Virus record (IMG/VR): IMGVR_UViG_3300014501_001247
Coordinates: 1-50,413 of that record
Reading direction: 5' to 3' (one strand)
From: a virus
Length of the DNA: 50,413 bases
The notes under the pieces were generated by a model, which was not told where the DNA came from, searched no databases, and saw only the letters and a list, made by a program, of their open reading frames with translations. Positions 16,105 to 34,864 of this stretch are shown piece by piece (position 1 is the stretch's first letter; each line of letters starts with the position of its first letter). The position numbers and the translations under genes were made by a program.

Positions 16105-18686
16105 GGCCCGGGAACCACGCTCGCATCGGCGGCGTTGGCGGCCGCGCGCTGGTGTCCGATCTGCGCGAGCTCGGCCCAGGTCAGCTTGAGCGGCGTGCCG
16201 TTGGCGACGCGCACCGACTTGTCGCCGTAGACGAGATTGAGCCCGTCGTTGCCGGGCGCCGTCACCCACTTGCCGTCGCGGCCGAATTTTGTGAGCGAGT
16301 CGGTGCGGTTGTTCTCGCCCAGCCCGATGTCGTCGACCGCCGGCGCCACGTTGAAGTCGCCGAGTTTTCCCCGCGCCGCCTGCGCGCCGGCCTGCACGTC
16401 ATCGGCCGACACGCCGGACGTCTTCGGGATCCGATAAGTGTCGCGGAAATCGTAGCGGTTGCCGACCAGGTCGTTGAAGGCTTTGCTCGCTGCGTCGGTC
16501 GCGCTCATGCCGTCGCGCACGTAGAGCGCGCCGAGCGTGGTGGCGAGATTGTAATAGCCGGTGAAGTCGCGATCGCGCTGGCGGCCCACCATGGTGGCCA
16601 GGAACGGCGCCATCGCGGTGTCGACCGCCTTGGTGAGATCGCCGGCCTTGGTCTCGCTCTGCTGCTTGAGCAGCTCCGCCGGCTTCTCGTCCTTGCCGAG
16701 CGAGAGAAGCCGCGTCATCGCTTGCGGATCGGCGCCGGCGGCGATCGCGCGGACGAGCGGCTGCGCGCCGGGCGCGATCTGGCGCATCACCTGCGGCCAG
16801 GCGTCGCCCCACAGCGCCGCTTCCTGCTGCACCTTGGCAATGAGCCCGACGCGGGCCTGCGGTTCCTCGGAATTTGCGGCCGTGCTGAGCTGCCCGTTGA
16901 TGCCGTCGGCGTAGGACTTCGGCACCACGCTCTGCGCCTCGGGAGAAACGCCGACGCGCTGCTGCTCCATGATGGTCTTGTTGGCGAAGTCGCGCGCCGC
17001 TGAGCGCCTGTCGTCGTCGCCGACCTGCGGATCACTAAGCGCCGCGGTGAGCTTGCCCCAGGCGTCGCGCGCCGCCGGCAGGTAGTGCACCGCGAAGGCA
17101 CCGGGATCCCGATCGCGCTCGTCGTTCGAGGCCTTGATTGCCGTTCCGAGCACCGCCTGGCGCTTGACCGCCTTGGCATAGTCTGGCGTCCCCGGCTGCG
17201 GCTCGTAGCTGCCGTAGAGCTGCTGCTGTTCCTCGGGCTTCATGTTGGCGACGCGCTGGACGTCGGCGCCGAGCTGCAGCTCGCCCTGGTAATCCTGATA
17301 GGCCCGCGCGCCGCGCTCGGCCCCATAGGTGCGGATAAAGTCCTCTTGCGCCAGCGGCGTCGTCGCGCTGCCGGTGTTACGGGCCTCCGCGATCGTGTCC
17401 TCGTAGCGCTGCTTGAAGTCGGAAAGGTCGGAGGCGACCTTCTGGTGCAGCATGCCGCCGAGCTTCGCCTCGAGCGCGGCGCGCTGCTGCGGCTGGATGT
17501 AGGAGTAGATCGAGCCGTCGCCTGGCGCGTAGCCGCCCATCTTGTCGGCCGACCATTGCGCCACCGTGCCCGCGGTCTTGCCGGCAAGGGTCAACTGGTT
17601 TGCCGCGATGACCTTGGGATCGAGCAGATCGGCGACCGGCGTGCCCGGCGGCGCCTTGAGCACCTTGGCGGCATCGCCCGGGCCGAGAAAATGCGCGAGG
17701 TAGAGGTTGCCGGCGCTGGGCGCGATGCCCTGCGCGTTGAACGAAGCGCGGTTCTGCGCGATGCCGCTGCCGATCGCCTCGCGGGTGAGCCCCGGATCGG
17801 CGCGCAGCGCCAGGATGTCGTCGTCGCTGCGCCCCTGCGCCAGCTCGGGATGCTTGTCGTGGATGAAGGAAAGCCAGGTCGCCTTGGTGTAGCCGCCGAG
17901 GCCGGCCGATGACGACGTGCTGCTCGCCGCATTCGGATCGCCGCCGGACTCGACCTGGATGTAGCGCTCGGTCAGCTCCGCGTCGGAGCCAGGCTTGGCG
18001 CGGATGTGGTTGATCGCGCCGAGCGGATCGGTCTGCGCCTGCTGGATCAGGAGCCCGCTGGCGACGTTGGCGCCGAAGGCGCGCTTCTTCGCCACCGCCT
18101 GGTCCTGGGTGATGAAACCGCGATTGGCGAGCGCGTCGACCGAGGCGCCATAGGCGTCCATGGTATCGGCGTGCACGGTCGGGTCGGCACTCGAGACCGC
18201 CTTGTTGCCGAGATCCTCGCCGAGCGTGTCGGTCGCGGCCATCTGGTGGTCGCCGTAGAGCTTGAAGGCGTGGGTGTCGGCGGCGCTCTGGCCGCGCGCG
18301 ATCGCTTCGTCGGCGCGCTGCGAGAAGATCTGCTGCATCGGCCCGGGACCGATCCGCGCTGCCCACTTGGTGCTCAGCGCCCCGGCCTGCGTCGCGTAGC
18401 GCTGCGTGAGATCCTGGCCGTTCTCGTCCCGGCCGTAGTTGAGGTCGCGCGCCGTGGTCTCGTTGAGCCCGATCAGGTCGGAGAGGAAGCCGGCATGGCC
18501 CATCGCATAGTCGTATGTCGCCTTGTGCTGGGCGATCTCGTCGAGGCCCTGCCCGGCCTGCGCGATGCCGGCGCCGAGCCGCTCCGCGCCGCGCGCGATC
18601 GGCTGCGCGTCGATCTCGCCGATCGGCCGCTCGCCGGAGCCGGGATTGACCTGGCCGAGATCCTCGGGCCCCGGAAGCTTCGACAT
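16101..18686 (-). CDS. Internal virion protein with lytic transglycosylase domain
   Basis: The 861-residue protein carries a soluble-lytic-transglycosylase-like domain at about residues 235-345. ERYIQVESGGDPNA holds the predicted catalytic glutamate near residue 246, followed by SSSAGLGGYTKATWLSF and NLYLAHFLGPGDAAKVL. The remainder is helical and repetitive, as in T7 gp16-type ejection proteins, which open the peptidoglycan during DNA delivery. It sits between the small core protein and the polyvalent protein, all three probably forming the ejectosome. The ATG is followed by KLPGPEDLG, a common N-terminus of this class. Confidence 0.85.
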   Translation of the reverse strand: MSKLPGPEDLGQVNPGSGERPIGEIDAQPIARGAERLGAGIAQAGQGLDEIAQHKATYDYAMGHAGFLSDLIGLNETTARDLNYGRDENGQDLTQRYATQAGALSTKWAARIGPGPMQQIFSQRADEAIARGQSAADTHAFKLYGDHQMAATDTLGEDLGNKAVSSADPTVHADTMDAYGASVDALANRGFITQDQAVAKKRAFGANVASGLLIQQAQTDPLGAINHIRAKPGSDAELTERYIQVESGGDPNAASSTSSSAGLGGYTKATWLSFIHDKHPELAQGRSDDDILALRADPGLTREAIGSGIAQNRASFNAQGIAPSAGNLYLAHFLGPGDAAKVLKAPPGTPVADLLDPKVIAANQLTLAGKTAGTVAQWSADKMGGYAPGDGSIYSYIQPQQRAALEAKLGGMLHQKVASDLSDFKQRYEDTIAEARNTGSATTPLAQEDFIRTYGAERGARAYQDYQGELQLGADVQRVANMKPEEQQQLYGSYEPQPGTPDYAKAVKRQAVLGTAIKASNDERDRDPGAFAVHYLPAARDAWGKLTAALSDPQVGDDDRRSAARDFANKTIMEQQRVGVSPEAQSVVPKSYADGINGQLSTAANSEEPQARVGLIAKVQQEAALWGDAWPQVMRQIAPGAQPLVRAIAAGADPQAMTRLLSLGKDEKPAELLKQQSETKAGDLTKAVDTAMAPFLATMVGRQRDRDFTGYYNLATTLGALYVRDGMSATDAASKAFNDLVGNRYDFRDTYRIPKTSGVSADDVQAGAQAARGKLGDFNVAPAVDDIGLGENNRTDSLTKFGRDGKWVTAPGNDGLNLVYGDKSVRVANGTPLKLTWAELAQIGHQRAAANAADASVVPGP

Positions 18687-19208: not shown

Positions 19209-19577
19209 TCAGGCGCGCCAGCGAAACACGATCACGCCGGCGAAGACGCCGTGCCGCGTAAAACCGAGCCGCTCGAGGAAGCGCTCGGCGGCGGGCTCGT
19301 TGGCATCGGGACTGGCGAACACCTCGCGCAGTCCGATGCGGCGCGCGAGCCGCATGGCAGCGACCCCGGCGCGAAGGAGCGCGGCCGGGAATTTTCGCCC
19401 GGCGGGAGTAACCAGCATCGAGGCCCAGACCGTGCCGTCCGGCATGTAGAGAAAGCCGCCGAGCCCGATCACCTCGTCGCCAAGCTTCGCCGCGAGCGCG
19501 CGGGCGCGCGTCACGGGCCGTCCGCCGGTCAGCCGCTCGAAGTCAGCTGCCGTCGCCGGCTCGATCGCGACCCGCAC
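19209..19577 (-). CDS. GNAT-like acetyltransferase-fold protein
   Basis: The 122-residue protein resembles a short GNAT domain. It has an N-terminal IEPATAADFERLTG start, a central beta-sheet with LGDEVIGLGGFLY and WASMLVTPAGRKFP, then AALLRAGVAAMRLARRIGLREVF and a final EPAAERFLERLGFTRHG, where cofactor-facing residues normally sit. Similar GNAT-fold proteins lie just after tail tube B in many podoviruses (T7 gp13 / DUF2833 position). It may be a virion assembly factor that has lost acetylation activity, or may modify virion or host proteins. The canonical Q/RxxGxG/A acetyl-CoA loop is not obvious. Confidence 0.72.
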   Translation of the reverse strand: MRVAIEPATAADFERLTGGRPVTRARALAAKLGDEVIGLGGFLYMPDGTVWASMLVTPAGRKFPAALLRAGVAAMRLARRIGLREVFASPDANEPAAERFLERLGFTRHGVFAGVIVFRWRA

Positions 19578-19595
19578 TAGGTCTTTGACGAGTAA

Positions 19596-22500
19596 TCAGC
19601 GCTCGTTGGTGGCCATCGCCACCACGGCGCCGCCGATGGTGGCGGGGTTCGGCGCCTGCGCCAGGAGGCACAGCCGGGCGTCGGCGTTCCAGGTGCCGGG
19701 CAGCGGGATGAAGGGGCCGTCGTATTCCGACCACACCGTGCCGGCGGGCGTCGCCTGCTCGGCGTCGACCTGCGGCATCGAGTCGAGCAGGTCGAAGCGC
19801 TGGCCGAACTGCACCGCGGTCGAGCCGGTGTCGTAGAGGACGAGGCCGACGTGGTCGATCTTCTTCTTCTGAGCGAGCGCCGTCGCACCCTGCACCGCGT
19901 AGGCGAGCTTGGCCGACTGGAAGGTCGCGACGTAGCCGAGGCAGGCGAACGATGGTCGAGGCCACCTGGTTGTTGGGGAGAGTGACGACGCCGTTCGCCA
20001 CCACCAGCGAGCCCATGTGCTGCGGCGGCCGCCCGGTGGCCCCGATGTCGGCCCACACCTCGCAGGGAAAGCCGTTGTACTGCGTGCCGACCGTGAGCGT
20101 GCCCTGCGCCGCGGAAAAAACCTGCGCCGGCGCCACGTTGTTCGGGAGGAGAGTGTTGGTCGAGCCGACGATCACCACGCCGCCGAGCCCGGCGACCACG
20201 TTGGAATGGCTCTTGCCGTCCGGCATGGTGAAGTTGCCGGAGCCGTCGGTGGTGGTGGTGCCGATCGCGGCGCCGTCGGCCCATACCGTGATCGTGGTCA
20301 AAGGGAGCCACGACGCCTGCAGGGTCGAGACCGCGGCGCCGGAATAGACCAGCGCGCAGTCGAGCTGCTCGTTGAGCGAGCCGCCGACGCAGTTGTCGCG
20401 GACCGCGAGCTTTTCCAGGAAACGCTTAGTCACGCCGTTGATGATGCGGCGAACGACGAAGTAGACCTGGTCCTCGATGCCGGTCGCGCTCGGCAGCACG
20501 CGCACCTTCTCGATGACGCCGAGCGTCATCATGCGCCAGAAGGCGGTCACCTCCTCGTCGATCTCGCGCAGCATCACCGCGCACTGGCCGTCGGTGCGCG
20601 GCAAAAACACCTGCTTGTCGGGCTGCTGCGCGACCGCGATGTCGACGAACTGCGGCTTGCCGATGTCGATGTTGAGCTTGGTCAGGTCGTCGGTCGAATA
20701 GTCGAACTCGCGACCGTCCCAATAGAGCTCGTAGATGCGCCGCCCGGACTGCTGCACGAACACGCCGCGGCTCTTGAGCGCGACGATCGGCAGCTGGTAG
20801 GCGCCCTCGCTGTCGCGGGGGTGCACGCCGAAGTCGCTGGGCGTCAGCGGCGCGCCGAAGCTCGAGGAGCGGGCGGACGAGATCTCCATCTCGCGGCCCA
20901 TCACCAGGTTGAGGCCGGAGAACGCCCAGCTCACGAAGTCGACCGGGCCAGAGCCGAAATCTTCGAGGATGGCAGCGCTGTCGCCGAAGCTCGCGCCGGT
21001 ATTGTCCTCCTCGGCGTAGCCCGTGTAATCGTTCGACTGCGACTGCGCGATCGGGATCGGCCCGGGGCCGTACCAGCCGAGCCGCCCTTCGTGGAATTTC
21101 ACCGTGGTGGGCCAGCCGTTGACGCCGGACCAGGCCGACTCCTGCCAGATCGTGTTCGGGGTGAGCACGCTGAACGGATCGAGCACCTCGATCGAGACGA
21201 CCGTGGGCGAGGTGTAGCCGGTCACCCGGCAGGTCGCCCACTTGCCGCCAGCCGCGGCGGCGCCGCCGGTGCTTGGGCCGAATTCTTCGCCGCCGGAGCT
21301 GGCCGCGAAATGCACCGCCGCCGCACCGCTCACATAGTCGCCGGCGCTGACGAAGCCAACCCGGTACCAGGCGATGACGTTGTCGAGCGAGGAGGAGTCG
21401 TCGTTTTCGGTCGTGGTGTTGGTGGTGATGTTGGCGATCGGCGCGAAACCCTCGTTCGGACCGACCAGCGATCGCTGGAGCGTGAGCGTGCCGCTCCAGG
21501 TCCCCGAGGTGATGACGCCGAACACGCGGTCGTTGCCGACGCCGGCGATGCGCATCGGCTCGGTGAAAGCGCCGAGCGCGCCAAGGAGCGTCGAGTAGAC
21601 CTGGCCGGGCGAGAACACCCGGAACAGCGCGCCGACATGGCCGGACTGGAAGTAAGGCTGGTCCGAGGTCAGCGTGCCGTTGCCGGTATAGACCGACGGC
21701 GTGAAGTTTGCCGTGATCGCCGGGCTCTCCTGGAACGGCCCATTATCGGAGCGGTAGAGCACGAACGACCAGCCGCGCGCGCCAGGCCGCACGCCGCGAC
21801 GCTCGATCTTGCGCTGCTGCTGGCCCTGGCAGGCGACGTAGATAACGTCGCCGGATTGCTCCGGGCGCAGGTTGGGCAGGTCGCCCACCGCCCAGGTGGT
21901 CGGGATCTCGAGCACGCCGGCGCTTTCGATGGTGCAGCCGGTGAGCGTCACCGCCTGCTGGCCGACATTCGAGGCGCCGGTGCCGTTGGTCGAGGAGCCC
22001 GAGTTGGTGCAGATCTGCAGGTAGGCCGAACCCGCGGTCGGCGTGAAGGCGAGCGAATGGGTGCCGGTGTCGATGACGCTCTGCGCCAGGTAATCGGAGA
22101 GCCCGGCGGCCGAGCCGATGCGGATGGTCACCGGGCCGTTTGAGACGACGACGCGCAGGCCGTGCTCGTTGTTCTGGTCGCCGGAGGCAATGCTCAGCGT
22201 CTGCCCGATCTGTGCGACGCCGCCGACCGCCGCCGGCGTCAGCGTGGCGACGCCGCCGGTCACAGTCGCCGAGCAGCCCGCCGTGGTGCCGGTGGTCGCC
22301 CAGTGGCTGCCGGTGCCGGTGAAGGTCGGGTCGAGCACGACGGTCGCGACCGAGCCGCGCGAGATCAGCACGTCGTTGATGCGCACCCGCATGATGCCGT
22401 CGATGAGCTCGAGCTGCGCGGTGTCGAACTTCGAATAGACGAAGTTGATCAGCGTGCAGGGTGCGTCGTTGAGGATCTCGCCGACCTGGTTGAGGCCCGG

Positions 22501-22650
22501 CCGCAGCATCATCGGGCCGATCGCCCACGGCATGAAGTTGACCTGCGCCTGCGCGGCGAGGCGGAGCTTTGCCACATCGACGCGGCCGAGCGCGATCTTG
22601 GAGACCTCGCCGGCGTTGAGCGCGTAGAGCGGGAAGTTGCCGCGGGCCAT
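19596..22650 (-). CDS. Tail tubular protein B (nozzle), frameshifted near its 3' end
   Basis: The N-terminus MARGNFPLYALNAGEVSKIALGRVDVAKLR and the early MLRPGLNQVGEI segment are characteristic of podovirus tail tube/nozzle B. The reading frame from 22650 loses sense after NNQVASTIV near 19949. The expected continuation (ACLGYVATFQSAKLAYAVQG..., then IDHVGLVLYDTGS and a stop at 19596) is in the next frame. Removing one base in the minus-strand stretch ATCGTTCGCC restores one frame of about 1017 codons, the size expected for the family. Following the wrong frame would instead run antisense-like into the GNAT gene to 19543. The event is either a sequencing error, a real mutation, or a +1 shift. 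Confidence 0.82.
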
Positions 22651-22956: not shown

Positions 22957-23616
22957 TCAGAAGCCGCCGGCCGGCAGCGGGCCGTCGTCGCCCGACATCG
23001 GCATCGTGGTCATGAAGCCGCGGCGCGCGCGCACCCAGCTCGACATCGGCATGAAGCCGGGCGGCAGGTTCATGGCGTCCTTGGAGCGCGCGTCAATGCG
23101 GGCGCGCTTCTCGCGCTGCACCAGGCCGTCGTCGCCCTTGAGGAGCTCGGTCGAGCCGGTGACGCGCTTGCACGCCATGCGGGCGAGCGCGATGGCGACG
23201 AACTCGGTGAACACCGCCGGCCAGGCGCCGAGGTTGAGTCCGTATTGCGGGTCGTTGGAGACGTAGGAGTGATAGAGCGGGGTGAAGTTGGCGTAGAGGT
23301 ACTGCGCCTCGCGGGTGTACTGCGTGAGCGGCGGCTCGAAGGTCGGCGAGGTCGAGACCATCACCACGCGCACGAAGTCGCCCAGCAGCGGGAAGGCGTA
23401 TTCGAAGCCGAAGGCAGGGACGACATCGAGCGAGGCGTCCTGCTGGATGGAGCGGACCATGAAGGCCCACAGCCCCTGCTCCAGGCAATATTCGACGCAA
23501 TGATTGTAATAGGCGTCGAGCGCGCGCTTGGCCTCGTTGTTCTCGGTCGCCGAGGCGAGCGGGCGCTCCTCGAGGTGGCCGAGCGCGAGGTTGTAGACGA
23601 TGAATTGGCTCGTCAT
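22957..23616 (-). CDS. Tail tubular protein A (gatekeeper)
   Basis: The 219-residue protein has the all-helical layout of T7 gp11-like tail tube A / head-tail adaptor proteins: IVYNLALGHLEERPLAS, then ENNEAKRALDAYYNHCVEYCLEQGLWAFMVRS, then RVVMVSTSPTFEPPL and FVAIALARMACKRVTGS. It should form the dodecameric ring between portal and nozzle. Gene order (this gene, small gene, tube B) is as expected. The C-terminal 40 residues (MPMSSWVRARRGFMTTMPMS) are less typical. Confidence 0.88.
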   Translation of the reverse strand: MTSQFIVYNLALGHLEERPLASATENNEAKRALDAYYNHCVEYCLEQGLWAFMVRSIQQDASLDVVPAFGFEYAFPLLGDFVRVVMVSTSPTFEPPLTQYTREAQYLYANFTPLYHSYVSNDPQYGLNLGAWPAVFTEFVAIALARMACKRVTGSTELLKGDDGLVQREKRARIDARSKDAMNLPPGFMPMSSWVRARRGFMTTMPMSGDDGPLPAGGF

Positions 23617-24095: not shown

Positions 24096-24692
24096 TCAGG
24101 CTCCGAGCTGGCGCTCGTAGCCGGTCAGGAAGGTCTGCGCCGCGGCCTCGCTGTCGAAGCCCGTTTTGATCACCGCGTTGTCGCTCTCGCGGATGACGCG
24201 GAACTTATCGACCGGGCCGCCCCAGCCGATGACGTGCTTCGGGCGGCTCTTGAGCGGCGGGCGCGCCTTGACCATGTCGTCGCGCGACTTGAAGTAGAAT
24301 TCGCCCATCACCGCCCAGTTGCGGCCGCAGTCGAGCACCTTGAGCACCGCGAACACGCTCTGCTCGTCGTTGGTGACGTCGACGGTCTGGCCCGGCTGCA
24401 GCTTGGCGCGCATGACGATGTTGGCCCAGAACGACGGTTCGAACACCGCCTCATAGGGCGTGCCGCGCTCGAGGCAGATCCAGTGGCCCGGATCCTTGTG
24501 CTCGAGCAGCGACCAGCGGTTTTCCGGGAGCGGCTTGGCGTTGACGCCGGGATCCATTGACGCCTTGTCCGGCCACGGCCGGCCGGCATCGGCTGCGGGC
24601 TTTGCCGGCGCCGCCGGCGCGGCGGTCTTCGGCTTCGGCGGCGTCAAGGTGCCGGCGGTGTCGGTGTCAAGCGGCTTGGCTGCTTCGGCCAT
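24096..24692 (-). CDS. Hypothetical structural-region protein (198 aa)
   Basis: There is a strong GGAGGATATAC ribosome binding site. Residues 1-45 are Pro/Ala/Lys-rich and probably disordered (TPPKPKTAAPAAPAKPAAD). The folded part has YEAVFEPSFWANIVMRAKLQPGQTVDV, CGRNWAVMGEFYF and a C-terminal FRVIRESDNAVIKTGFDSEAAAQTFL segment, a short beta-sheet plus helix. It lies between the glycosyltransferase gene (26-nt overlap) and tail genes. Similar proteins occur in rhizobial podoviruses near TTPA, function unknown. Confidence 0.72.
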   Translation of the reverse strand: MAEAAKPLDTDTAGTLTPPKPKTAAPAAPAKPAADAGRPWPDKASMDPGVNAKPLPENRWSLLEHKDPGHWICLERGTPYEAVFEPSFWANIVMRAKLQPGQTVDVTNDEQSVFAVLKVLDCGRNWAVMGEFYFKSRDDMVKARPPLKSRPKHVIGWGGPVDKFRVIRESDNAVIKTGFDSEAAAQTFLTGYERQLGA

Positions 24693-25707
24693 GTATATCC
24701 TCCAGAGCGTGTTTCAGTTCGGCCGCGGTGTGCGACCAGGTGAGGTTGTGAACGAGGGAAACCTTCGCCGGCTCCCAGGGCAGGCGATGCGCGAGCTCGA
24801 GCGTCTCGACGATCTCCTCGACGTCGGAGGAGCCCCAGCCGTTGGCGTCAAAGGTCTGCCGCTCGAGCATGTAGGCGCGGGTCGCCAGGTCGAGGTGCCC
24901 GGTGTTGGCCGACAGGATCGTCGGCACGCCGCAGGCGAGGCATTCCATCGCCACCAGGTTGGTGCCGCCCTCGGCGCGGTTCGGGAACAGCGCGACGTCA
25001 CACTCGCGCAACACCGGCGCCAGCAAGGCGTTCGGCACCGCGCCGACATCGATCACGCGATCAGCGAACTCGGTGAGATCGAGATCCATGCCGTCGCGCA
25101 GCGCCGGCCAGGGCGAGTGCCACGCCGTCACCAGCATGGCGTCGTCGTGGCGCGCCGCGAAGATGCGAAACGCCTTGACCACCAGGTCCTGGCCTTTGCG
25201 CGGCTCGGCCTTGCCGCCTGAGAAGATGACAAACCTGCCGGGGAAGAGGTCGCGCTTGCGCGCCGGATGAAACAGCGTCGGATCGACGCCCTGCAGGATG
25301 ACGCGGACGTTCGAGAGACCGCGATCGCGCAGCAGCCGCCCGTTCCAGGTCGAGCCGGCGATGATCAGGTCGTAGCGCTTGAGCCGCTCGATCGCGGCAT
25401 CGGACAGCGGCTGCTCGAAGAAGATCGCGGCGACGCGGGCACCGGCGATCTGCTCGGGCACGCCATCGCCGTCATTGCCGAGCGCGGCGATCGCGATGGC
25501 GTCGCGCGGCCGCGGCCCGAAGCTGCGGGTCACGAAGGGCCGCAGCGCGCGCCGGCGCAGCGGATCGACCGCGATCTGCTTGAGGTCGAGCGGCCAGGAG
25601 GTTGAGGCCTCGACCGTCGGATCGCTCGCCCACTCCAGCGCCAGGTTGAGACCGTAGACGCCCCAGCCGAAGAACGAGGAGATCTGCCAGCCGAGCGAGA
25701 CCTTCAC
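24667..25707 (-). CDS. GT4-family glycosyltransferase
   Basis: GTG 25707 overlaps the upstream stop (GTGA), giving 346 residues: VKVSLGWQISSFFGWGVYGLNLALEW is the acceptor-side start of a GT-B fold. The C-terminal half has FVIFSGGKAEPRKGQDLVVKAF and a donor-sugar site (NRAEGGTNLVAMECLACGVPTIL, an E(x)7E-like motif typical of GT4 retaining enzymes). It should transfer a nucleotide-activated sugar. It is directly coupled to the TPR-glycosyltransferase-FkbM fusion gene, forming a two-gene glycosylation cassette. The target (virion protein, phage-encoded glycan or host surface) cannot be read from sequence. Confidence 0.88.
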   Translation of the reverse strand: MKVSLGWQISSFFGWGVYGLNLALEWASDPTVEASTSWPLDLKQIAVDPLRRRALRPFVTRSFGPRPRDAIAIAALGNDGDGVPEQIAGARVAAIFFEQPLSDAAIERLKRYDLIIAGSTWNGRLLRDRGLSNVRVILQGVDPTLFHPARKRDLFPGRFVIFSGGKAEPRKGQDLVVKAFRIFAARHDDAMLVTAWHSPWPALRDGMDLDLTEFADRVIDVGAVPNALLAPVLRECDVALFPNRAEGGTNLVAMECLACGVPTILSANTGHLDLATRAYMLERQTFDANGWGSSDVEEIVETLELAHRLPWEPAKVSLVHNLTWSHTAAELKHALEDIHGRSSQAA

Positions 25708-27821
25708 GCGGCCGCCTTCGGGTGGGCAGCCTTCGGATGTGTGTAGCCGAGCACGCGCGGCGCTTCGCTCGCGATCTCGCCCGGCCAGGCGGCGTCGACC
25801 TCGGCCTGTGTGCTGAAGAGGAGATTGACGATCCAGCGGCCGGAGAGCTGATGTTCCGGCAGCACTTTCGTCGGCTTCGAGCCGTCGATCGGCAGCAGGA
25901 ACGTCTCGTAGCCCGCGCGCGCCATCAGCTCGCGCAGCGAAGCCTGCGAGCCGCCGAGTTTTTGCAGGCCGAACTCGTGCAGCTCGGCGACGATGAAGGG
26001 CGGCGGCGCCTCGAATAGCGAGGCCATCGCGCCTACGAGCACGCGCTGCTCGGCGCCTTCGGTGTCGATCTTGATCAGCCGCGGTTTGAGCCCGCGGACC
26101 GCGAGCTCGTGATCGAGCGTGGTCGCCTGCATCACCGAGCTCTGCGGCTTGTCCCGTGAGGCCTGGTTCGTTGGAAATTCGCCCGGATCCCACAGCGCAT
26201 TGCCGCCGCCACCGTCGGCGCACAGATGGAAAGTCACCGGCAAGTCGGTATCCGCTACAGGCTTCGCCACGATCTCGACATTGCCGAGCGCGCCGACCGC
26301 GGCGCTCAAGGCATCGAGGTTGTTCGAGCCGGGCTCGAAGGCCAGCACCTTGCCGGCCGAACCGACCAGCTCGGCGGCGAGCACGGCGTGCTCCCCGACA
26401 TTGGCGCCGACGTCGACGAAGCAATCGCCCGGCCGCAGCACGCGCTGCATCAAACTCTTGACGTCGGGCTCGTAGACACCGCCGATGGTGCCGCCCGAGG
26501 CCGCTGCTTTTTCGGCCTTCTCGGCCGAGTTCACGCCGGTATTGATGGCGCGCACGAAGGCGCGCTCCTGGTGCAGCTGCGCCACCGCAACGAGAACGCG
26601 CGCCATGACGCCGCGCCAGTCGCGCGGCCGCTGCTGCCGGAACAGCCGCATGCTCGGATACCACGGCGTGTCGTCGCGGCCGGAGAGCCAGCGCCAGTCG
26701 TTGAACAGCGGGATGAGCAGGAATGTCTTGACGCCGAGCGCGCCGGCGATGTGCGCGATCGCGGTGTCGACCGTCACCACCAGGTCGAGGTTCTGCAGCA
26801 CGGCGGCGGTGTGCGACCACTCGCCCTCGATCATGCCGGAGAGATCGCCGACGATCCTTTGCGCCCGCGCTTGCGCGAGTTCGGCGGCGGGCTTGCCGCA
26901 TTGGAGCGAGAACACGTCGTTGCGCGGGTCGGCGGCGAGGCCAACCATGTCGGTGAACGCCATCGAGCGGATGGCGTCATTGGGATGATCCTTGTTGCCG
27001 GCCCAGGCGATGCCGATCTTGAGGCCGGCCGCGCCGAGCCGGTCGTTCGAGGCCGCGGGCGTCAGCAGCCCCGGATCCGGCGGAATGGTGTCGGGCGTGA
27101 GCCCGTAGAGGAGTGGCAGGCTCGACAGGCAGATCTGCGCGTCGAAGACGGTGCCGGCCGGATAGAAGCAGCCGACGTCGGCGATCGAGCGGTAGCCGTG
27201 AAACAGCGGCACGGTGTGGGCGTCGGTCAGGAAAGTGACCTTGTCGGCGCGCTCGCGGGCCCACGGCAGGAAGCGCGCGAACATGACGCGATCGCCGTAG
27301 CCCTGGTCGCCCCACACGCAGAGGTGCCCGGTCTTCTTGCCGGTCCAGCGCGGCGCCGGCGGCGGCGGTGCGGTGCGCGGCAGGATCTCGGCGCGGAATT
27401 CGTAGAGCGGCAGGCCGCGCGCAAAATCGCCGGCGCGCAGATACGCCGCGGCAAGGTCGAACTTGGCCTGGCCGTGATCGGGCGCGAGCGTGAGCACGCG
27501 CTGGAAACAGTCGATGGCTTGCGCGAGCAGGCCGCGGTGGGTCTTGATGGTGCCCAGCATCTGCCAGGCGGAGACGATGCTGTCGCGCTGCGCGATCGCG
27601 GCGGTCAGCAGCGCCTCGGCCTCGTCATCCTCGCCGGCGCCGATCAATAGCGAAGCGAGATTGACGCGGCGCGCGAGCGCATTCGGATCGAGCGCCACGG
27701 CGCGGCGCGCGATCGCGATCGCGGTCTCGCTGGCGCCGTCCTTGGCGACGGCGAGCGCGACGTTGTTGAGGAGCCCGGAAAGAAGCTGTTGCTCCCCCGG
27801 CACCTGCGGCTGTTCTGGCAT
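25704..27821 (-). CDS. TPR - GT9-like glycosyltransferase - FkbM methyltransferase fusion
   Basis: The 705-residue protein has three modules. Residues 15-150 are TPR repeats (AIAIARRAVALDPNALARRV; AIDCFQRVLTLAPDHGQAKF). Residues 160-425 are a GT-B glycosyltransferase of the TPR-linked GT9-like kind, with LDLVVTVDTAIAHIAGALGVKTFLLIP and WRWLSGRDDTPWYPSMRLFRQ. Residues 465-670 are an FkbM-family SAM-dependent methyltransferase with DCFVDVGANVGEHAVLA, LAFEPGSNNLDAL and IKIDTEGAEQRVL. It could transfer a sugar and O-methylate it. The ATG at 27821 sits 4 nt after GGGGGAG, itself inside the T-tract side of the upstream terminator; an alternative TTG lies 12 nt upstream. Confidence 0.9.
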   Translation of the reverse strand: MPEQPQVPGEQQLLSGLLNNVALAVAKDGASETAIAIARRAVALDPNALARRVNLASLLIGAGEDDEAEALLTAAIAQRDSIVSAWQMLGTIKTHRGLLAQAIDCFQRVLTLAPDHGQAKFDLAAAYLRAGDFARGLPLYEFRAEILPRTAPPPPAPRWTGKKTGHLCVWGDQGYGDRVMFARFLPWARERADKVTFLTDAHTVPLFHGYRSIADVGCFYPAGTVFDAQICLSSLPLLYGLTPDTIPPDPGLLTPAASNDRLGAAGLKIGIAWAGNKDHPNDAIRSMAFTDMVGLAADPRNDVFSLQCGKPAAELAQARAQRIVGDLSGMIEGEWSHTAAVLQNLDLVVTVDTAIAHIAGALGVKTFLLIPLFNDWRWLSGRDDTPWYPSMRLFRQQRPRDWRGVMARVLVAVAQLHQERAFVRAINTGVNSAEKAEKAAASGGTIGGVYEPDVKSLMQRVLRPGDCFVDVGANVGEHAVLAAELVGSAGKVLAFEPGSNNLDALSAAVGALGNVEIVAKPVADTDLPVTFHLCADGGGGNALWDPGEFPTNQASRDKPQSSVMQATTLDHELAVRGLKPRLIKIDTEGAEQRVLVGAMASLFEAPPPFIVAELHEFGLQKLGGSQASLRELMARAGYETFLLPIDGSKPTKVLPEHQLSGRWIVNLLFSTQAEVDAAWPGEIASEAPRVLGYTHPKAAHPKAAA

Positions 27822-27830
27822 CCACTCCCC

Positions 27831-27873
27831 CAAAAAAGAAAAGCCCCCGGGCCGTTTTTTCGGTCCGGGGGCT
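27831..27873 (-). terminator. Strong intrinsic terminator after decoration-protein gene
   Basis: On the minus strand AGCCCCCGG.CCG pairs with CGG.CCGGGGGCT around an A-rich loop, followed by TTTTCTTTTTT. It lies 24 nt beyond the stop of the decoration protein and 10 nt before the ATG of the glycosyltransferase fusion. It should reduce read-through from the very highly expressed capsid genes into the glycosylation genes. Confidence 0.92.
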
Positions 27874-27896
27874 CGGTCGTGCGGCTGAGAGGGCCG

Positions 27897-29267
27897 TTAG
27901 GCGTAGTCGGCGTCGAGGATCAGAACCCCGCTGCCGGTGGTGCGACCCTGGATGAACGAGACGAGACCGGCCGTGAGAGTGGCCGCGCACGTCACGTCGA
28001 GGGTGATCGCCTGGCTATTGCCCTGGAGCAAGCCACCAGACGAGATGGTGTGCGCACCCAGCGCCGAGTCGGTGATGGCGAAGCCGCCCGGCGTGAACGT
28101 CACGGTCGGGGCCTTGCGCATCACCGCCGGGAGCGGGATGTGCACCTGCGCGATCGATGCGGCCGAGTAGACCGCCGGGCCGACCGCCATGCCGACGGTG
28201 GGCTCGTTGAGGACCTGCAGGTAACGCGTGCACAGGTTCCACACCTCGGCTTCGTCCAGGTGCTCGTATGGCGACATGCCGCCGATCTCGACCTGGATGC
28301 CGCTGTGGAACAGCTGCTCGCTGGTGCCCGCCGTGGTTCCGGCGGCCGGCGTGTAGTACACGAGCCACGCGAGCTGCGTGGCGTTGGTCGGCACGACGCC
28401 GGCGAACGGCCCGACGCGGGTGGCCGTGGTCGAGGGCGTGATGGCGGCGGTCGCCACCGTCGAAGCCCCGGTCCAGGATCCCGAGCACAGGTCGGCGAAG
28501 GTGTCGTCGGTGCCGGTGCCGGCGATGAGCTGCATCACATAGACGCCGCCCGAGGCGCCCGCAGCCCAGCTCGTTCCCGCACGCACCCACTCGCTCATCG
28601 AGAGCGGCAGGCCTTGCAGGCGGATCGAGTCGTTGGTTTCGAACACCTGGCCGAAGGTCAGGCCGACCGTGTGCGTGTCGGTCGAGGAGCGACCCCACGC
28701 GAACGACTGGCCGAAACCGGCGACATTGGTGTCGGCGGTCTTCTGCACGGTCCACGAGGACGAAGTGCCGCCGATCGCGCAGAAGCGATCCGCGGTGAGC
28801 TTCGCCGTCGAGCCGCCGGAGAGCACGCCGGTGCCGAGCTGCCACGGATTGGTGGTGGCGTCGCCGGCGTCGATCAGGTTGCGCGGGTTGACGCCGAGCG
28901 AGGCGATCGGGAGATCGACCTCGGTAAGCGTCGCGACCCCCGAAGTGGTCGTGCCCGCGGCGGTGACCGCGGAGACCTGCATGCGCACCCAGGTCGGAGC
29001 GGAAGAGAACCGCGCCGTGATGCCCACGGTCGGAGGGAAGGTCACCGCGCCGAGCGCCGTGCCGCCGGTGGTGCTGGCGAAGTTCGTCAGCGTACCGGAG
29101 AACACGTCGACGATGTCGCCGAGCTTCACCCGTTTGTTGGTCGCGTCCGAGATGTAGCCCGAGGCCTGCACCGCGCCGACGGAGTCGGAGGTGTAGTAGA
29201 GCCAATAGGCGATCCCGGTCTCGAGGTCGTCGAGCACCTTGGAGAGGTTGCCGGTCAAATACGACAT
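27897..29267 (-). CDS. Capsid decoration / head fibre-like protein
   Basis: The 456-residue, Thr/Ser/Gly-rich, mostly beta protein lies 11 nt after the capsid gene in the order typical of a head decoration or head fibre protein. The C-terminal segment HLDEAEVWNLCTRYLQVL resembles the LxRCxRYYE-like element that marks the start of C-terminal beta-sandwich modules in such proteins. The middle (TSWAAGASGGVYVMQLIAG, TTAGTSEQLFHSGIQVEIG) looks like a carbohydrate-binding-module-like jelly roll. The start has a GGGAGGCGCGC ribosome binding site. The domain boundaries are estimated by eye. Confidence 0.75.
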   Translation of the reverse strand: MSYLTGNLSKVLDDLETGIAYWLYYTSDSVGAVQASGYISDATNKRVKLGDIVDVFSGTLTNFASTTGGTALGAVTFPPTVGITARFSSAPTWVRMQVSAVTAAGTTTSGVATLTEVDLPIASLGVNPRNLIDAGDATTNPWQLGTGVLSGGSTAKLTADRFCAIGGTSSSWTVQKTADTNVAGFGQSFAWGRSSTDTHTVGLTFGQVFETNDSIRLQGLPLSMSEWVRAGTSWAAGASGGVYVMQLIAGTGTDDTFADLCSGSWTGASTVATAAITPSTTATRVGPFAGVVPTNATQLAWLVYYTPAAGTTAGTSEQLFHSGIQVEIGGMSPYEHLDEAEVWNLCTRYLQVLNEPTVGMAVGPAVYSAASIAQVHIPLPAVMRKAPTVTFTPGGFAITDSALGAHTISSGGLLQGNSQAITLDVTCAATLTAGLVSFIQGRTTGSGVLILDADYA

Positions 29268-29278
29268 GCGCGCCTCCC

Positions 29279-30124
29279 TTAAGACGTCGCCACATAGGCC
29301 GAGCCGTCATGCCGAACGAGGACCACGCCTCGGTTCTGCAAGAGGGTCGAACCCATGTATGCGGTGGTGCGGGCCCAGCTGTAGTCCTGCTCTTCGTGAT
29401 AGCCGGCGAGGGCCTGCATTTCGCCGGTGTTCACCGCGTGGCCGACGGCGTAGCGGTGATAGAAGAACAGCGTCTCGGCATTGGTGCCGACGCCCGGAAC
29501 GAGCGGGTGCTCGATGACGTTGAAGCCGTTCCAGCGGCGGAAGCGTCGAGCGGGCCCGTTGAGGGGCTTCACTTCGGCAATTTCCGAGCTGTTGAACTCC
29601 TTCAACTGGAGCAGATAGCCCATGGCCGCGGGCGAGACGACCGCGTACATGTTGTCGATCTCTTGGATCGGCACCTGGTTGAGCCCGAGCACAACGCGCG
29701 CGCGGACAAACATCGCCAGCGTCATCGTCGCCGCCGACGTGCCGATGTAGTTGGTCCCGGTCGCCAAGGCCGACATGATGTCGAGGTCGGTCTTGCGGTT
29801 CAGCACGTAGCGCGTGGTGCGCTGCATGATGGAGCGGCCGTCGCCCTGCGAGGCGAAGATGTTGAAGCTGGTCCGGCGGACCAGGTCGTGCCATTCCACG
29901 AGCGTCGTCGTGTATTGGTTTAGATCGTCCATGCGTGCGGGGATGAACCCGTTCACGCCGCGGTTGGAGGCCGAAGCGCCGCCCGAATCGGCGACCAGGA
30001 ACACCGCCTGGTTGCCCTTGATCGTGACTTCGGTGCAGACGGAGGTTCTCAGATCGGACTGGCCGAACTCGAACCCGTCGACGGTCTCCTTCCGATATTG
30101 GACAATGAAGGCCGTATCGGACAT
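29279..30124 (-). CDS. Major capsid protein
   Basis: The 281-residue protein is directly preceded by scaffold and followed by decoration genes. It begins MSDTAFIVQYRKETVDGFEFGQSDLR and contains TSFNIFASQGDGRSIMQRTTRYV and NMYAVVSPAAMGYLLQLKEF, consistent with a capsid (HK97-like fold) of the kind found in alphaproteobacterial podoviruses. It lies between two hairpins or terminators, consistent with a strongly expressed unit. The ribosome binding site is weak (GATGAGC), which is odd for a capsid gene; the 5' leader contains a perfect hairpin. Confidence 0.88.
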   Translation of the reverse strand: MSDTAFIVQYRKETVDGFEFGQSDLRTSVCTEVTIKGNQAVFLVADSGGASASNRGVNGFIPARMDDLNQYTTTLVEWHDLVRRTSFNIFASQGDGRSIMQRTTRYVLNRKTDLDIMSALATGTNYIGTSAATMTLAMFVRARVVLGLNQVPIQEIDNMYAVVSPAAMGYLLQLKEFNSSEIAEVKPLNGPARRFRRWNGFNVIEHPLVPGVGTNAETLFFYHRYAVGHAVNTGEMQALAGYHEEQDYSWARTTAYMGSTLLQNRGVVLVRHDGSAYVATS

Positions 30125-30497: not shown

Positions 30498-31715
30498 CTA
30501 AGCCGCGCGCGCCTTCATCTTGGCCTGCGTGTCGATCAGCTCGCGCTGGCGGGCATCGAGCCCGGGCTTGCCGTCGTGGCCGTAATAGGCGCGGTGTGCC
30601 TCGCGGTCGCCGCCGATCGCCTTGAGGTAGGTCTCGCGGATCGAGGCGATCTCGCTGTCGATGAACTGGCCGGCGTTCGGCGTGCCGGGCGGCACGATGG
30701 TCGACTGCGGAAACATCTCGCGCGAGAGCTGCGTCAGAAACCGGCAGGCGTTCGGATCGTCGCCGAGAATGCGCCCGTTAGGGAGCCGCGCCATAAGGAT
30801 CGCGGTGCCAAGGCCGTCGGGCGTGAGACCACCCGGCGCCATCTCCATCAGGTTGCCGATGGCGCGCTGGTTCTGCTTGGTCTCGGTGCCCCATTCCTGC
30901 GCCAGCTCGGCGAGCGTGGTGTCGTGGAAGGTCTGATCGGCTTCCGCGCGCGCGGCCGCCTGCTGATCCTGTACGCCGTAGTACCAGTCGACCATGCTGT
31001 TGAAGGCATCCTGCGGGACGTTCGCCGCCGCGGCCGCCTTGGAAAAACTCTCGACCAGCGGCTTGTCGGCGTCGGAGATCACAAGCCCGTCGCCGAGCTT
31101 CATGTCCTTGACGTAGGCCTCCGCCGTCTCCGGGAGGCCCTGCTCCTTGCGCCAGGCGGCGATCTGCTCGGGCTTGGCGTCGGCCGCGAGCGGCTTCGGC
31201 GCCGCCTTGAGCTCGCCGGCCGCCACCTTCAGCCGCAGCTGCTCGTAGCTGTCGAACATCGCGCGCGGCGAGGCGAAGCGCTCGAGCGTCTTGAGCAAGG
31301 CCTTGTCGTCGCCGGCAATCGACTGGCGCCAGTCCGACGTGCCGCCGGTACCGGCGGCCGCAGCGGCGCGCGCGGCCGCGGCTGCCGCGTCGGCGCCGCC
31401 CGCTACAGTATCTCGACCAGATCCAGCGCCGGCACCCTCGGCTTTTCCCCCCTTGCTATCCGCTCCACCCGCGCCTGCATCAGCGCCAGCTGCACCGCCG
31501 CCTTGACCAGATCCCGCACCTGCGTCTTGTGCGCCGCCAGCTGCGGCTGCGGTCCCGCCGCCAGCTCCGGCGCCAGCTCCAGTGTCACGCACACCAGCAG
31601 CTGTCCCGCCTCCACCGCCACTACCGGCATTGTCACCTCCCTTGCCCTCTCCGGCTTCCGGATAAGGAGCAAACAAAGCAAGCGGGCTCGCCCCGCCGAA
31701 CAGACGCAGAGACAT
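30498..31715 (-). CDS. Scaffolding protein
   Basis: The 405-residue protein lies between the portal-side genes and the major capsid gene. Residues 25-125 are extremely Gly/Ala/Asp-rich (GAGAGAGGGTAAAAGGAQDAGAGS and similar), probably disordered. Residues 130-405 are helical and charged: DKALLKTLERFASPRAMFDSYEQLR, GLPETAEAYVKDM and DGLVISDADKPLVESFSKAAA, a pattern I know from scaffold proteins of alphaproteobacterial podoviruses. It should direct procapsid assembly and leave before packaging. GAGGTGACCG precedes the ATG. Confidence 0.87.
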   Translation of the reverse strand: MSLRLFGGASPLALFAPYPEAGEGKGGDNAGSGGGGGTAAGVRDTGAGAGAGGGTAAAAGGAQDAGAGSGQGGGAAGADAGAGGADSKGGKAEGAGAGSGRDTVAGGADAAAAAARAAAAAGTGGTSDWRQSIAGDDKALLKTLERFASPRAMFDSYEQLRLKVAAGELKAAPKPLAADAKPEQIAAWRKEQGLPETAEAYVKDMKLGDGLVISDADKPLVESFSKAAAAANVPQDAFNSMVDWYYGVQDQQAAARAEADQTFHDTTLAELAQEWGTETKQNQRAIGNLMEMAPGGLTPDGLGTAILMARLPNGRILGDDPNACRFLTQLSREMFPQSTIVPPGTPNAGQFIDSEIASIRETYLKAIGGDREAHRAYYGHDGKPGLDARQRELIDTQAKMKARAA

Positions 31716-31810: not shown

Positions 31811-32176
31811 CTAGTCCGCCGGCGCGGCGCCTCGTGCGGACGGCTCGGGGCCGACCGGATAGGCATTGGGGCCTTCGCCGCGCACCTGCGGCGTCACGGC
31901 ATGAAGCTGCGAGGTCTTGACGAGCTGCAGGCCGACGAACCGTTTGCCCTCGGCGAACACCGTGCCGCGCTCGCCGCCGAGCCCATCGGGCCGGAACGAC
32001 AGGTCGCGGATGCCGCAGAACTCGAACAGGATCGTCTCGACGGCGAGCAGCTGCTGGCCTTGATTGGCGGTGCCGGTGAACAGCGCCTTTATGGCGCCGA
32101 CGCGCGGATCGCCGAGCTCGAGCATCACCGGCGCCCATGGCGGCGGCGATTTGCGCTGCGCCGTGCGTTCGGTCAC
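31811..32176 (-). CDS. Bbp19-like small head-region protein
   Basis: GTG 32176 overlaps the portal stop (GTGA) and gives 121 residues. DPRVGAIKALFTG..., LSFRPDGLGGERGTVFAEGKRFVGLQL resembles the small Bbp19-type family (DPxG..VL..L......F...A..T.Y.EG.R.VGL.L) encoded beside portal genes of BPP-1-like and other podoviruses. Its function is unknown but its position is conserved. The family call is tentative because only the G.R..G-x-F..GkR.VGLql core matches by eye. Confidence 0.6.
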   Translation of the reverse strand: MTERTAQRKSPPPWAPVMLELGDPRVGAIKALFTGTANQGQQLLAVETILFEFCGIRDLSFRPDGLGGERGTVFAEGKRFVGLQLVKTSQLHAVTPQVRGEGPNAYPVGPEPSARGAAPAD

Positions 32177-33849
32177 GTCATGCCCGCCTGCTGCAGCGCC
32201 TTGGCGGCGTTGCCGGCGCTTTGCGCGGCCTTGCCGACGCGGGTCGCCATGTCGGTGCCTTGCGCCACCTGCGCGGCCGCCTGCTGGCGCGCCTGCGCAT
32301 CGGCGTTCTGCTGCTTGATCTTCGCCACCTGGTCGAGCGGCAGGATCCAGTCGGCCGGCGAGCCGCCGCCGTAGAGCGCGTCGCGGTAGGCCTTGTCGAT
32401 GTCGAGGTTGACGCTGACGTCGGGCTTGACCTGCGCGGCCTCGACCGTGATCTGGATGGCGTCGCGGAAGGCCTGCGCCTTGGCGCGCTCGGCCGCGGCC
32501 TGCAGCGGGGTGTCGAACTGGAAGCGGATCTCCTGGCCGCGCAACGCCTGCGGCATGTCGTAGACCGAGCCGAACGCGCCCATGTCGAGCAGCGTGTCGA
32601 ACGCCATCTCGCAGACCTGGCCGTTGTTCTCCTCGGCCATCGGCTCGATCAGCGGGATCGCCTTGCGAATGAATTCCTCGTAGAGCCGCTGCGACTCGGT
32701 CGCGGTCATCTCCTTGGAGATGGTCGGAAACTGCAGTGCCGAATTGAAGAAGGTCTCCTGGAGGATCTTCTCCAGCCGCTCCTCGCGCGCGGCGCCGAAC
32801 TGCAGACCGCGGAACTCGAGCTGCATCGGGCGCAGCACCTCGCCCATGCGCTCGTCGTAGTCGGCGTCGGTCCAGGTGATGCCGCCGGCGAACAGGTTGG
32901 TGCCGCCGTTGATGGCCTCGCCGACCGCGATCATCGGCGGGTCGACCGACTTCTGGCCGGCCTCGAGCAGCGTCAGTGTCATCTGCTGAAACATCCGGGC
33001 GTCCGGCAGCCCGTACACTGTCGCCGGCGAATAGGCGTAGGGCGAGCCCATCAGCGAATTCGAGCAGCGCTCCCAGCGCGAGATGATGTACTGCCGGCGC
33101 TTGACCGGACGCTCCTCGAGCAGCGTCTCGTTCTCGATGTCGACATAGATCGACACCCACGGCCGGCCGCGCGTCACCTTGAGCGGCAGGTCGTAATCCT
33201 CGGCCCGCATCATGATGTGGCGGCAGTTGATCTCCTTGAGCAGCTCCTCGTCCTTGAGGCTCGCGACCTCGGTGCCGATGGTCTTGGGAAACAGCTTCTG
33301 CATCTCGAAGCCCTTCGGCTTCCAGTTGCGGTCGATCTCGTTGATCTCGCAGTAGCTGTCCTCGGACCAGGCGGTATCGCGCAGGTGCCAGGAGCGGAAG
33401 ATCAGCCCGTCGAGCTCGCGGCGCGGCTCGCAGGTCATGATGCCGTTTCCGAACGCGGTCCAGTCGCCGTCGAGCTCCTTCGCCGCGGCGGTGAAGTTGG
33501 CGCGGCGGTCGTACATGAAACGGCGCTGCTGCGCCGAGAGCCAGTCGAGAAAGCGCTTGTTGGTGAGGTCGTCGTTGACCTTGTCGTCGAGGGTACGCGC
33601 ATGCAGCCACTGCTGGTCGCGCGGCCGCAGCATGGCGCCGACGGCGTTCTTGAGGTCGCGGTGCGCCATCGCCGGCCGCCCGCTCATCAGGAACGAGGCA
33701 AACTCCTCGCTCGGATAGCGCGCCCGGGTGAAGTCGGCGCGCATGACATGAAAATTCTCGGCTATGGCCTGGCACAGCGACATCATCGGCATGCGCTGCG
33801 AGAACATCGCGTCGCCCTTGCGAAGAAGGTCGAGCACGCGCTGGCGCAA
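32173..33849 (-). CDS. Portal (head-to-tail connector) protein
   Basis: The 558-residue protein is a podovirus portal: LLRKGDAMFSQRMPMMSLCQAIAENFHVMRADFT, then PVKRRQYIISRWERCSNSLMGSPYAYSPA, then PPMIAVGEAINGG and an Ala/Gln-rich C-terminal crown helix (QNADAQARQQAAAQVAQG). It forms the dodecameric packaging and ejection channel. The start is taken as TTG 33849, 4 nt after the upstream stop, because the expected N-terminal helix begins there. GTG 33837 and ATG 33807 are alternatives; none has a strong ribosome binding site, so translation is probably coupled. Confidence 0.9.
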   Translation of the reverse strand: MRQRVLDLLRKGDAMFSQRMPMMSLCQAIAENFHVMRADFTRARYPSEEFASFLMSGRPAMAHRDLKNAVGAMLRPRDQQWLHARTLDDKVNDDLTNKRFLDWLSAQQRRFMYDRRANFTAAAKELDGDWTAFGNGIMTCEPRRELDGLIFRSWHLRDTAWSEDSYCEINEIDRNWKPKGFEMQKLFPKTIGTEVASLKDEELLKEINCRHIMMRAEDYDLPLKVTRGRPWVSIYVDIENETLLEERPVKRRQYIISRWERCSNSLMGSPYAYSPATVYGLPDARMFQQMTLTLLEAGQKSVDPPMIAVGEAINGGTNLFAGGITWTDADYDERMGEVLRPMQLEFRGLQFGAAREERLEKILQETFFNSALQFPTISKEMTATESQRLYEEFIRKAIPLIEPMAEENNGQVCEMAFDTLLDMGAFGSVYDMPQALRGQEIRFQFDTPLQAAAERAKAQAFRDAIQITVEAAQVKPDVSVNLDIDKAYRDALYGGGSPADWILPLDQVAKIKQQNADAQARQQAAAQVAQGTDMATRVGKAAQSAGNAAKALQQAGMT

Positions 33850-34648: not shown

Positions 34649-34864
34649 TCAGCCTTTGCGCTTGAGCCCGGCAAAGCCGAGATTGACCTCGCGCTGCCAA
34701 TGCGGCCGCGGCGACGCTGGCGGCATCGCCGGATCGCGGCCGCACTCGCGCGGCTCGTCCTCGCCCGGGCACAGAAACTTCGCCCCGCGCGGCGGCTCGC
34801 AGCGCTCGGGCTTCTGGTCCGAGTAGGCGATTGCCTCTTCGCCAGCAGTGCGGAAGCGTCCCAT
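34649..34864 (-). CDS. Small phage protein after terminase
   Basis: ATG 34864 has a GGAGGCAAC ribosome binding site and overlaps the terminase stop. The 71-residue product has two cysteine-containing stretches (ERCEPPRGAKFLCPGEDEPREC), which could bind a metal, and ends HWQREVNLGFAGLKRKG. The ending recalls the end of the large terminase (RVNLGYGALKRGPG), suggesting a shared short motif. No function is assigned. Confidence 0.6.
   Translation of the reverse strand: MGRFRTAGEEAIAYSDQKPERCEPPRGAKFLCPGEDEPRECGRDPAMPPASPRPHWQREVNLGFAGLKRKG

Follow-up and report, generated by a model that had tools for sequence, protein, structure and literature searches.

A glycosyltransferase and methyltransferase cassette inherited together with a fibre-like domain is a candidate virion-glycosylation module in phages

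The stretch of DNA analysed here, referred to as the window, is a virus contig of 50,413 bases, IMG/VR record IMGVR_UViG_3300014501_001247; names such as L003 and L106 denote loci with which it was compared. An earlier note on this DNA had placed a TPR-GT9-like-FkbM fusion gene and a GT4 gene between a head decoration gene and the tail tube genes, and both genes proved to be real and intact (Table 1). GC3 was 0.89 for both enzyme genes and 0.87–0.94 for their neighbours, so that they share the same codon composition. Megablast of the region against phage records returned no matches. Because genes for an integrase and an endolysin are present in the window, the phage is probably temperate. We also observed a 526-aa ORF at 36855–38435 on the minus strand, between the small and large terminase genes, for which there were no PHROG matches.

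Table 1. Features of the window, listed in the order in which the minus strand is read.
Feature	Position	Strand	Basis or remark
Integrase	39695–40642	–	phrog_1 E 9.7e-26; PF00589 E 4.4e-19
Large terminase	34864–36441	–	Upstream end of the described gene order
ORFs in order after large terminase	31811–33775, then 30498–31715	–	
Major capsid protein (flank)	29279–30124	–	Phage_capsid_2 E 1.9e-21; phrog_3437 major head protein E 1.7e-51
456-aa post-capsid protein	27897–29267	–	Between major capsid and fusion gene
N-terminal domain of 456-aa protein	28887–29267	–	phrog_18004 match; short homologues right after capsid gene
C-terminal fibre/CBM-like domain (CTD), proposed acceptor	27897–28886	–	AF2 model, PDB and BFVD matches, CTD tree
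Intrinsic terminator	27832–27874	–	34-nt hairpin 27841–27874 and T-rich tail; sequence reading and folding
TPR-GT(9-like)-FkbM fusion enzyme	25704–27821	–	Pfam domains, homologues, predicted structure
Domains of fusion enzyme	TPR ~27387–27797; GT-B ~26544–27356; FkbM ~25905–26414	–	
GT4-family glycosyltransferase	24667–25707	–	phrog_2170 glycosyltransferase E 3.1e-21; Pfam
Conserved gene phrog_26742, closing the slot	24096–24692	–	Between GT4 and tail tube A
Tail tube A-like protein (flank)	22957–23616	–	phrog_394 tail protein E 9.8e-27
Tail tube B	19543–22650	–	After tail tube A

The gene previously read as a head decoration gene encodes a capsid-neighbour domain with a long fibre-like extension. 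In most relatives the capsid gene is followed by a short stand-alone post-capsid gene, behind which the next gene comes after a small gap; the product of the short gene, 82–136 aa in length, matches the start of the 456-aa protein of the window, and we infer that the N-terminal domain of the latter is capsid-linked. The CTD of approximately 330 aa is appended to this domain. Its AF2 model is all-beta (pLDDT 75) and matched CBM22 and CBM4 carbohydrate-binding modules in the PDB, as well as tail-fibre and CenC-like phage proteins in BFVD. The CTD is likely to be a head-exposed fibre domain. A tblastn search with the CTD against annotated phages gave no matches. The Ser/Thr content of cassette-linked CTDs is slightly higher (0.228 and 0.243 vs 0.205), a weak difference that was not used as evidence. 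As a separate observation, the short post-capsid gene is duplicated in tandem in some relatives (L038:7869–8440, L086:2520–3101, and L092:1032–1616).

Between the gene for the 456-aa protein and the fusion gene lies a strong intrinsic terminator consisting of a GC-rich hairpin (–26.1 kcal/mol) followed by TTCTTTTTT. It was found by reading and folding the sequence; an automated terminator scan had missed it. By a stringent criterion, which 11 of 200 random window stretches satisfied as well, the post-capsid gene is followed by a hairpin and a T-rich tail in 12 of 31 other loci, and a similar GC hairpin was seen by eye in further relatives, including L004, L006, L010, L012, and L167. In the T7 late operon, the terminator Tphi lies between the capsid (gene 10) and tail-tube (gene 11) genes, and the hairpin in the window stands at the Tphi position. 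In both cases a terminator parts the capsid block from the tail-tube genes, and the cassette of the window starts right behind it; unlike in T7, the terminator has a fibre/decoration gene upstream and the cassette downstream. This arrangement suggests that the cassette and the tail genes behind it are read together, at a level below that of the capsid. No sigma-70-like promoter was found in the cassette region, although this is a weak test at such G+C.

A single 709-codon frame (25704–27833, minus strand) holds the TPR repeats, Glyco_transf_9, and FkbM according to Pfam. Its start is most likely the ATG at 27821 rather than the TTG at 27833, because the TTG sits inside the U-tract of the terminator and because the homologue in L009 likewise starts with ATG right behind its own terminator. 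The FkbM domain matches PF05050 (E 1.3e-14) over residues 474–643, covering profile positions 1–172 of 173, and the VDVGA and IKIDTEGAE motifs are kept in all five fusion homologues. The Glyco_transf_9 match (E 6.9e-5) covers residues 340–370, only 31 residues, with 22.7 bits against a cut-off of 22, and the VDTA motif has C instead of D in four of five phage fusion homologues. Since the Pfam match is short and the motif variable, it is uncertain from sequence whether the domain belongs to CAZy family GT9 proper. A PDB sequence search with the GT-domain profile gave no matches. The predicted structure of the fusion (pLDDT 78.5) had SPINDLY and OGT as its top PDB matches, with low global TM-scores of 0.17–0.28. 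These GT41 enzymes share the TPR superhelix and GT-B fold and are the best fold matches, but the sequence family of the fusion, with its weak Glyco_transf_9 match, is not GT41.

Scanning for close relatives with the fusion protein alone found nothing, and profile searches were required. The three-domain fusion had been described as unusual in a phage. Unusual it is, but it is not unique: the architecture recurs in at least four other phage contigs, and in L012 FkbM is a separate gene. A TPR-GT9-FkbM fusion also occurs in 3 of 80 bacterial loci, which refutes the notion of a phage-only fusion; the architecture is therefore rare yet not phage-specific.

The second enzyme contains a GT4-type domain in Pfam (PF13692, E 1.2e-12; PF00534, E 5.4e-11). 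Its EGGTNLVAME motif is invariant in four homologues, with a spacing one residue longer than the classical E-x7-E. The GTG start at 25707 overlaps the stop of the fusion gene (GTGA), and the GT4 gene overlaps the next gene (ATG 24692) by 26 nt. These start and stop overlaps indicate that the fusion, the GT4 gene, and the following gene are coupled. The 44-kb record of L106 has no GT4 of the window type, and the role of GT4 is therefore optional or different.

To compare the slot between the post-capsid gene and phrog_26742, we used capsid searches of IMG/VR that yielded 19 loci at first and then 80. In relatives without the cassette the slot is typically a gap of only 56–137 nt (L013, L015, L016, L019, and L020). 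A further clear capsid relative, L262, has a short post-capsid gene and no cassette; it came from a capsid search of 385 genomes of one alphaproteobacterial class. The full cassette is present at the same slot in the independent contigs L004, L010, L105, and L012, and in these and the window the domains are intact; in L006 and L009 the contig ends inside the beginning of the fusion gene. Recurrence of the pair at one place in independent contigs means that the arrangement is not due to chance. L167 has TPR-GT9 and GT4 without FkbM. L003 and L131 have a non-homologous set of two putative GT-A genes, assigned by weak PHROG matches, and a SAM methyltransferase. Similar arrangements occur in phages with other heads: in L150 the CTD is followed by a GT fusion and FkbM, and in L154 and L157 by a methyltransferase joined to a putative GT-A domain. 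Separately, phrog_1574 (L017:9090–9800, L003:12284–13192, and L150:3518–5194) resembles a GT-A-type glycosyltransferase: in L150 it forms a fusion with a GT4 domain, and in L003 and L017 its partners are other GT-like genes. L003 also has two diverged tail tube A genes side by side (16096–17461).

After redundancy removal, 10 of 27 loci whose post-capsid gene is extended (one of them, L017, has only a 180-aa gene and no CTD) but none of 37 with a short gene had a GT set (Fisher p 5.6e-5, a descriptive value since the loci are related). For most loci with a CTD no GT was recognised after it (17 extended loci lack one), and thus the CTD does not need a GT, a point against a functional link between the two.

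The slot had been thought to be normally empty. This holds for most relatives, in which it is nearly so, but a few hold other cargo. An HNH-like gene occupies it in L041 (2944–3651), and a large tailspike-like gene does so in L047 and L048 (L047:2250–4592). These genes mark the slot as a wider insertion site, and the enzymes could be functionally unlinked passengers at a cargo site behind a terminator that recombine with the adjoining 3' part of the fibre gene. Phage genes that lie side by side recombine jointly, and they can do so without interacting. Against this, which we regard as quite doubtful, domain motifs are kept at approximately 50% protein identity, and several non-homologous GT and methyltransferase sets stand directly behind CTD genes, including in the other-head phages L106, L150, L154, and L157. 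In L003 and L007, moreover, the change in the enzyme set follows the CTD rather than the capsid.

A profile search with the CTD recovered 79 loci, and the heads of many of these are unrelated. In a tree of the CTDs, the window groups with L009, L006, L010, L105, and L106 in a TPR-GT9 cassette clade (support 100/100) that L012 joins at 100/98 and that crosses unrelated capsids. CTDs with GT-A-type sets (L003, L131, and L149) form a separate clade (100/99); the two clades are neighbours in a larger quick tree (87), a position that is unsettled in a smaller careful tree. The label "followed by GT" changes three times on the CTD tree vs at least eight times in 500 shuffles, and a tree grouping the CTDs by capsid kinship was rejected (p-AU 5.5e-6). 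L106 combines an SU10-type capsid (PF17236, E 4e-94) and an N-terminal domain unrelated to that of the window with a CTD at 56% identity to the window and an adjoining TPR-GT-FkbM enzyme at 51%. L007 has a capsid that is 82% identical, a CTD from a different clade, and no enzymes. L003 is 81% identical to the window in the capsid and 68% in the N-terminal domain but only 39% in the CTD, and has a different enzyme set. Mapped onto the capsid tree, the GT label shows just four changes, and the argument therefore rests on these few contrasts (L106, L007, and L003). Together, the slot and CTD comparisons show that phage GT genes adjoin virion genes and co-vary with a domain of a presumed virion protein: the enzyme set is inherited and exchanged together with the fibre domain.

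To place the fusion enzyme among known proteins, we compared it with bacterial homologues. The TPR-GT half aligns with Caulobacteraceae TPR-GT proteins (hhalign 99.9%, E 4.1e-32, 390 columns) that are encoded 1–3 kb from flagellin genes in seven of eight loci and that we equated with FlmG by architecture, size, and flagellin linkage. In FlmG, the TPR domain binds flagellins and the GT-B domain glycosylates them in the cytosol (PMC7591256). The Caulobacter crescentus enzyme likewise has an N-terminal TPR followed by GT-B, and the homology to the flagellin-linked proteins extends over their whole length. At the sequence level, assignment of the TPR-GT half as an FlmG-type TPR-GT protein glycosyltransferase is well supported. 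There are differences: the phage enzyme adjoins a virion fibre gene whereas FlmG adjoins flagellins, its TPR is shorter, identity is approximately 24%, and it carries a fused FkbM methyltransferase and is followed by a GT4 gene. The TPR-GT domain profile matched one Caulobacteraceae genome (G402, the source of L216) approximately 20 times, which is an unusual expansion.

Given the direct homology to flagellin-linked proteins and the abundance of TPR-GT homologues in Alphaproteobacteria, the enzyme might be an FlmG homologue that the phage acquired from its alphaproteobacterial host and that acts on host flagellin or another surface protein. However, flagellin lies near the closest bacterial relatives in only 1–2 of 80 loci, for which reason flagellin was discarded as a general partner, and this explanation accounts neither for the CTD linkage seen in unrelated phages nor for the alternative GT sets. 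We consider it very improbable. Both host-protein modification and passenger cargo are less likely alternatives to a virion-glycosylation module.

It has also been proposed that the pair modifies a host glycan to block superinfection. More broadly, the cassette could act, in lysogens or late in infection, on a surface glycan or the lipopolysaccharide of the host, resulting in lysogenic conversion, superinfection exclusion, or keeping of progeny off debris. The fibre domain and enzymes would then travel together because the enzymes mask the glycan bound by the fibre, which is conceivable because the phage looks temperate and the CTD, with its fold like a carbohydrate-binding module, may bind glycans. 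FkbM enzymes usually methylate glycans, which also fits. The integrase fits as well; however, 11 of 13 tested records had an integrase, irrespective of the cassette, and as a sign of lysogenic conversion it does not discriminate. Unlike a lysogenic-conversion serotype module, the pair lies in the late operon, away from the integrase and coupled to morphogenesis genes, in the region where the weak promoter test was negative. Beside the pair we recognised neither a membrane anchor nor a gene for lipid-linked export, and among the cassette neighbours searched, which are virion genes, there was no flippase-type gene. The tail fibre is common to cassette relatives mainly in its N-terminal anchor, and the cassette therefore does not track that receptor binder. 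Enzymes of the FlmG, OGT, and SPINDLY type act on proteins (PMC7591256). We found nothing specific in support of the superinfection idea, and modification of a host glycan seems fairly unlikely.

The reading best supported by FlmG-type homology and co-segregation with the CTD is the one first offered in the earlier note, glycosylation and O-methylation of a virion protein. On balance, we lean toward the two genes being a virion-protein glycosylation module that is exchanged with the fibre domain and for which the fibre protein (27897–29267) is the likely acceptor. In the chemistry and order of steps that we propose, the TPR superhelix of the fusion would grip the acceptor in the infected cell, and the GT-B domain, with a host nucleotide sugar as donor, would glycosylate it in the cytosol, in the way that FlmG glycosylates flagellin. 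The tethered FkbM domain would then O-methylate the transferred sugar, and GT4, where present, might add a further sugar as an optional extension. The acceptor would most likely be the capsid-linked protein with the fibre/CBM-like CTD, modified before assembly and then carried on the particle. The benefit may be altered adsorption, stability, or masking.

As a comparison, virion glycosylation by phage GTs was shown for mycobacteriophages Che8 and Rita (Freeman et al. 2023, as cited in PMC11256854). Phage GTs there act on virion proteins, as we propose from the genes of the window, although mycobacteriophages belong to another phage group. The GT genes of the F1 phage Maravista are near the genome end and not beside the presumed acceptor, and PMC11256854 describes no TPR-GT-FkbM fusion for mycobacteriophage glycosylation. 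Phage virion glycosylation and FlmG are thus already known; what is new is a fibre-linked, exchangeable enzyme set in which an FlmG-like TPR-GT carries a fused methyltransferase.

Across unrelated phages, a domain of a presumed virion protein is passed on jointly with the enzymes that presumably modify it. To our knowledge, there are few documented cases of covalent sugars on phage particles, and acceptor choice is poorly understood. More tentatively, dedicated, exchangeable GT-methyltransferase sets might recognise the head-fibre domain, here through a TPR clamp, and be replaced by non-homologous sets when the domain changes. If the enzyme set is indeed replaced with the fibre domain, the glycan coat of the fibre could, with the same reserve, be an evolving part of phage-host recognition. 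The natural swaps (L003, L007, and L106) predict which particle proteins are modified and which enzyme is responsible. The system is compact, with two or three genes, and centres on a TPR-GT and sugar methyltransferase fusion that is homologous to a well-studied cytosolic flagellin glycosylation enzyme. Phage-particle glycosylation thus looks like a testable, swappable module and not like stray cargo.
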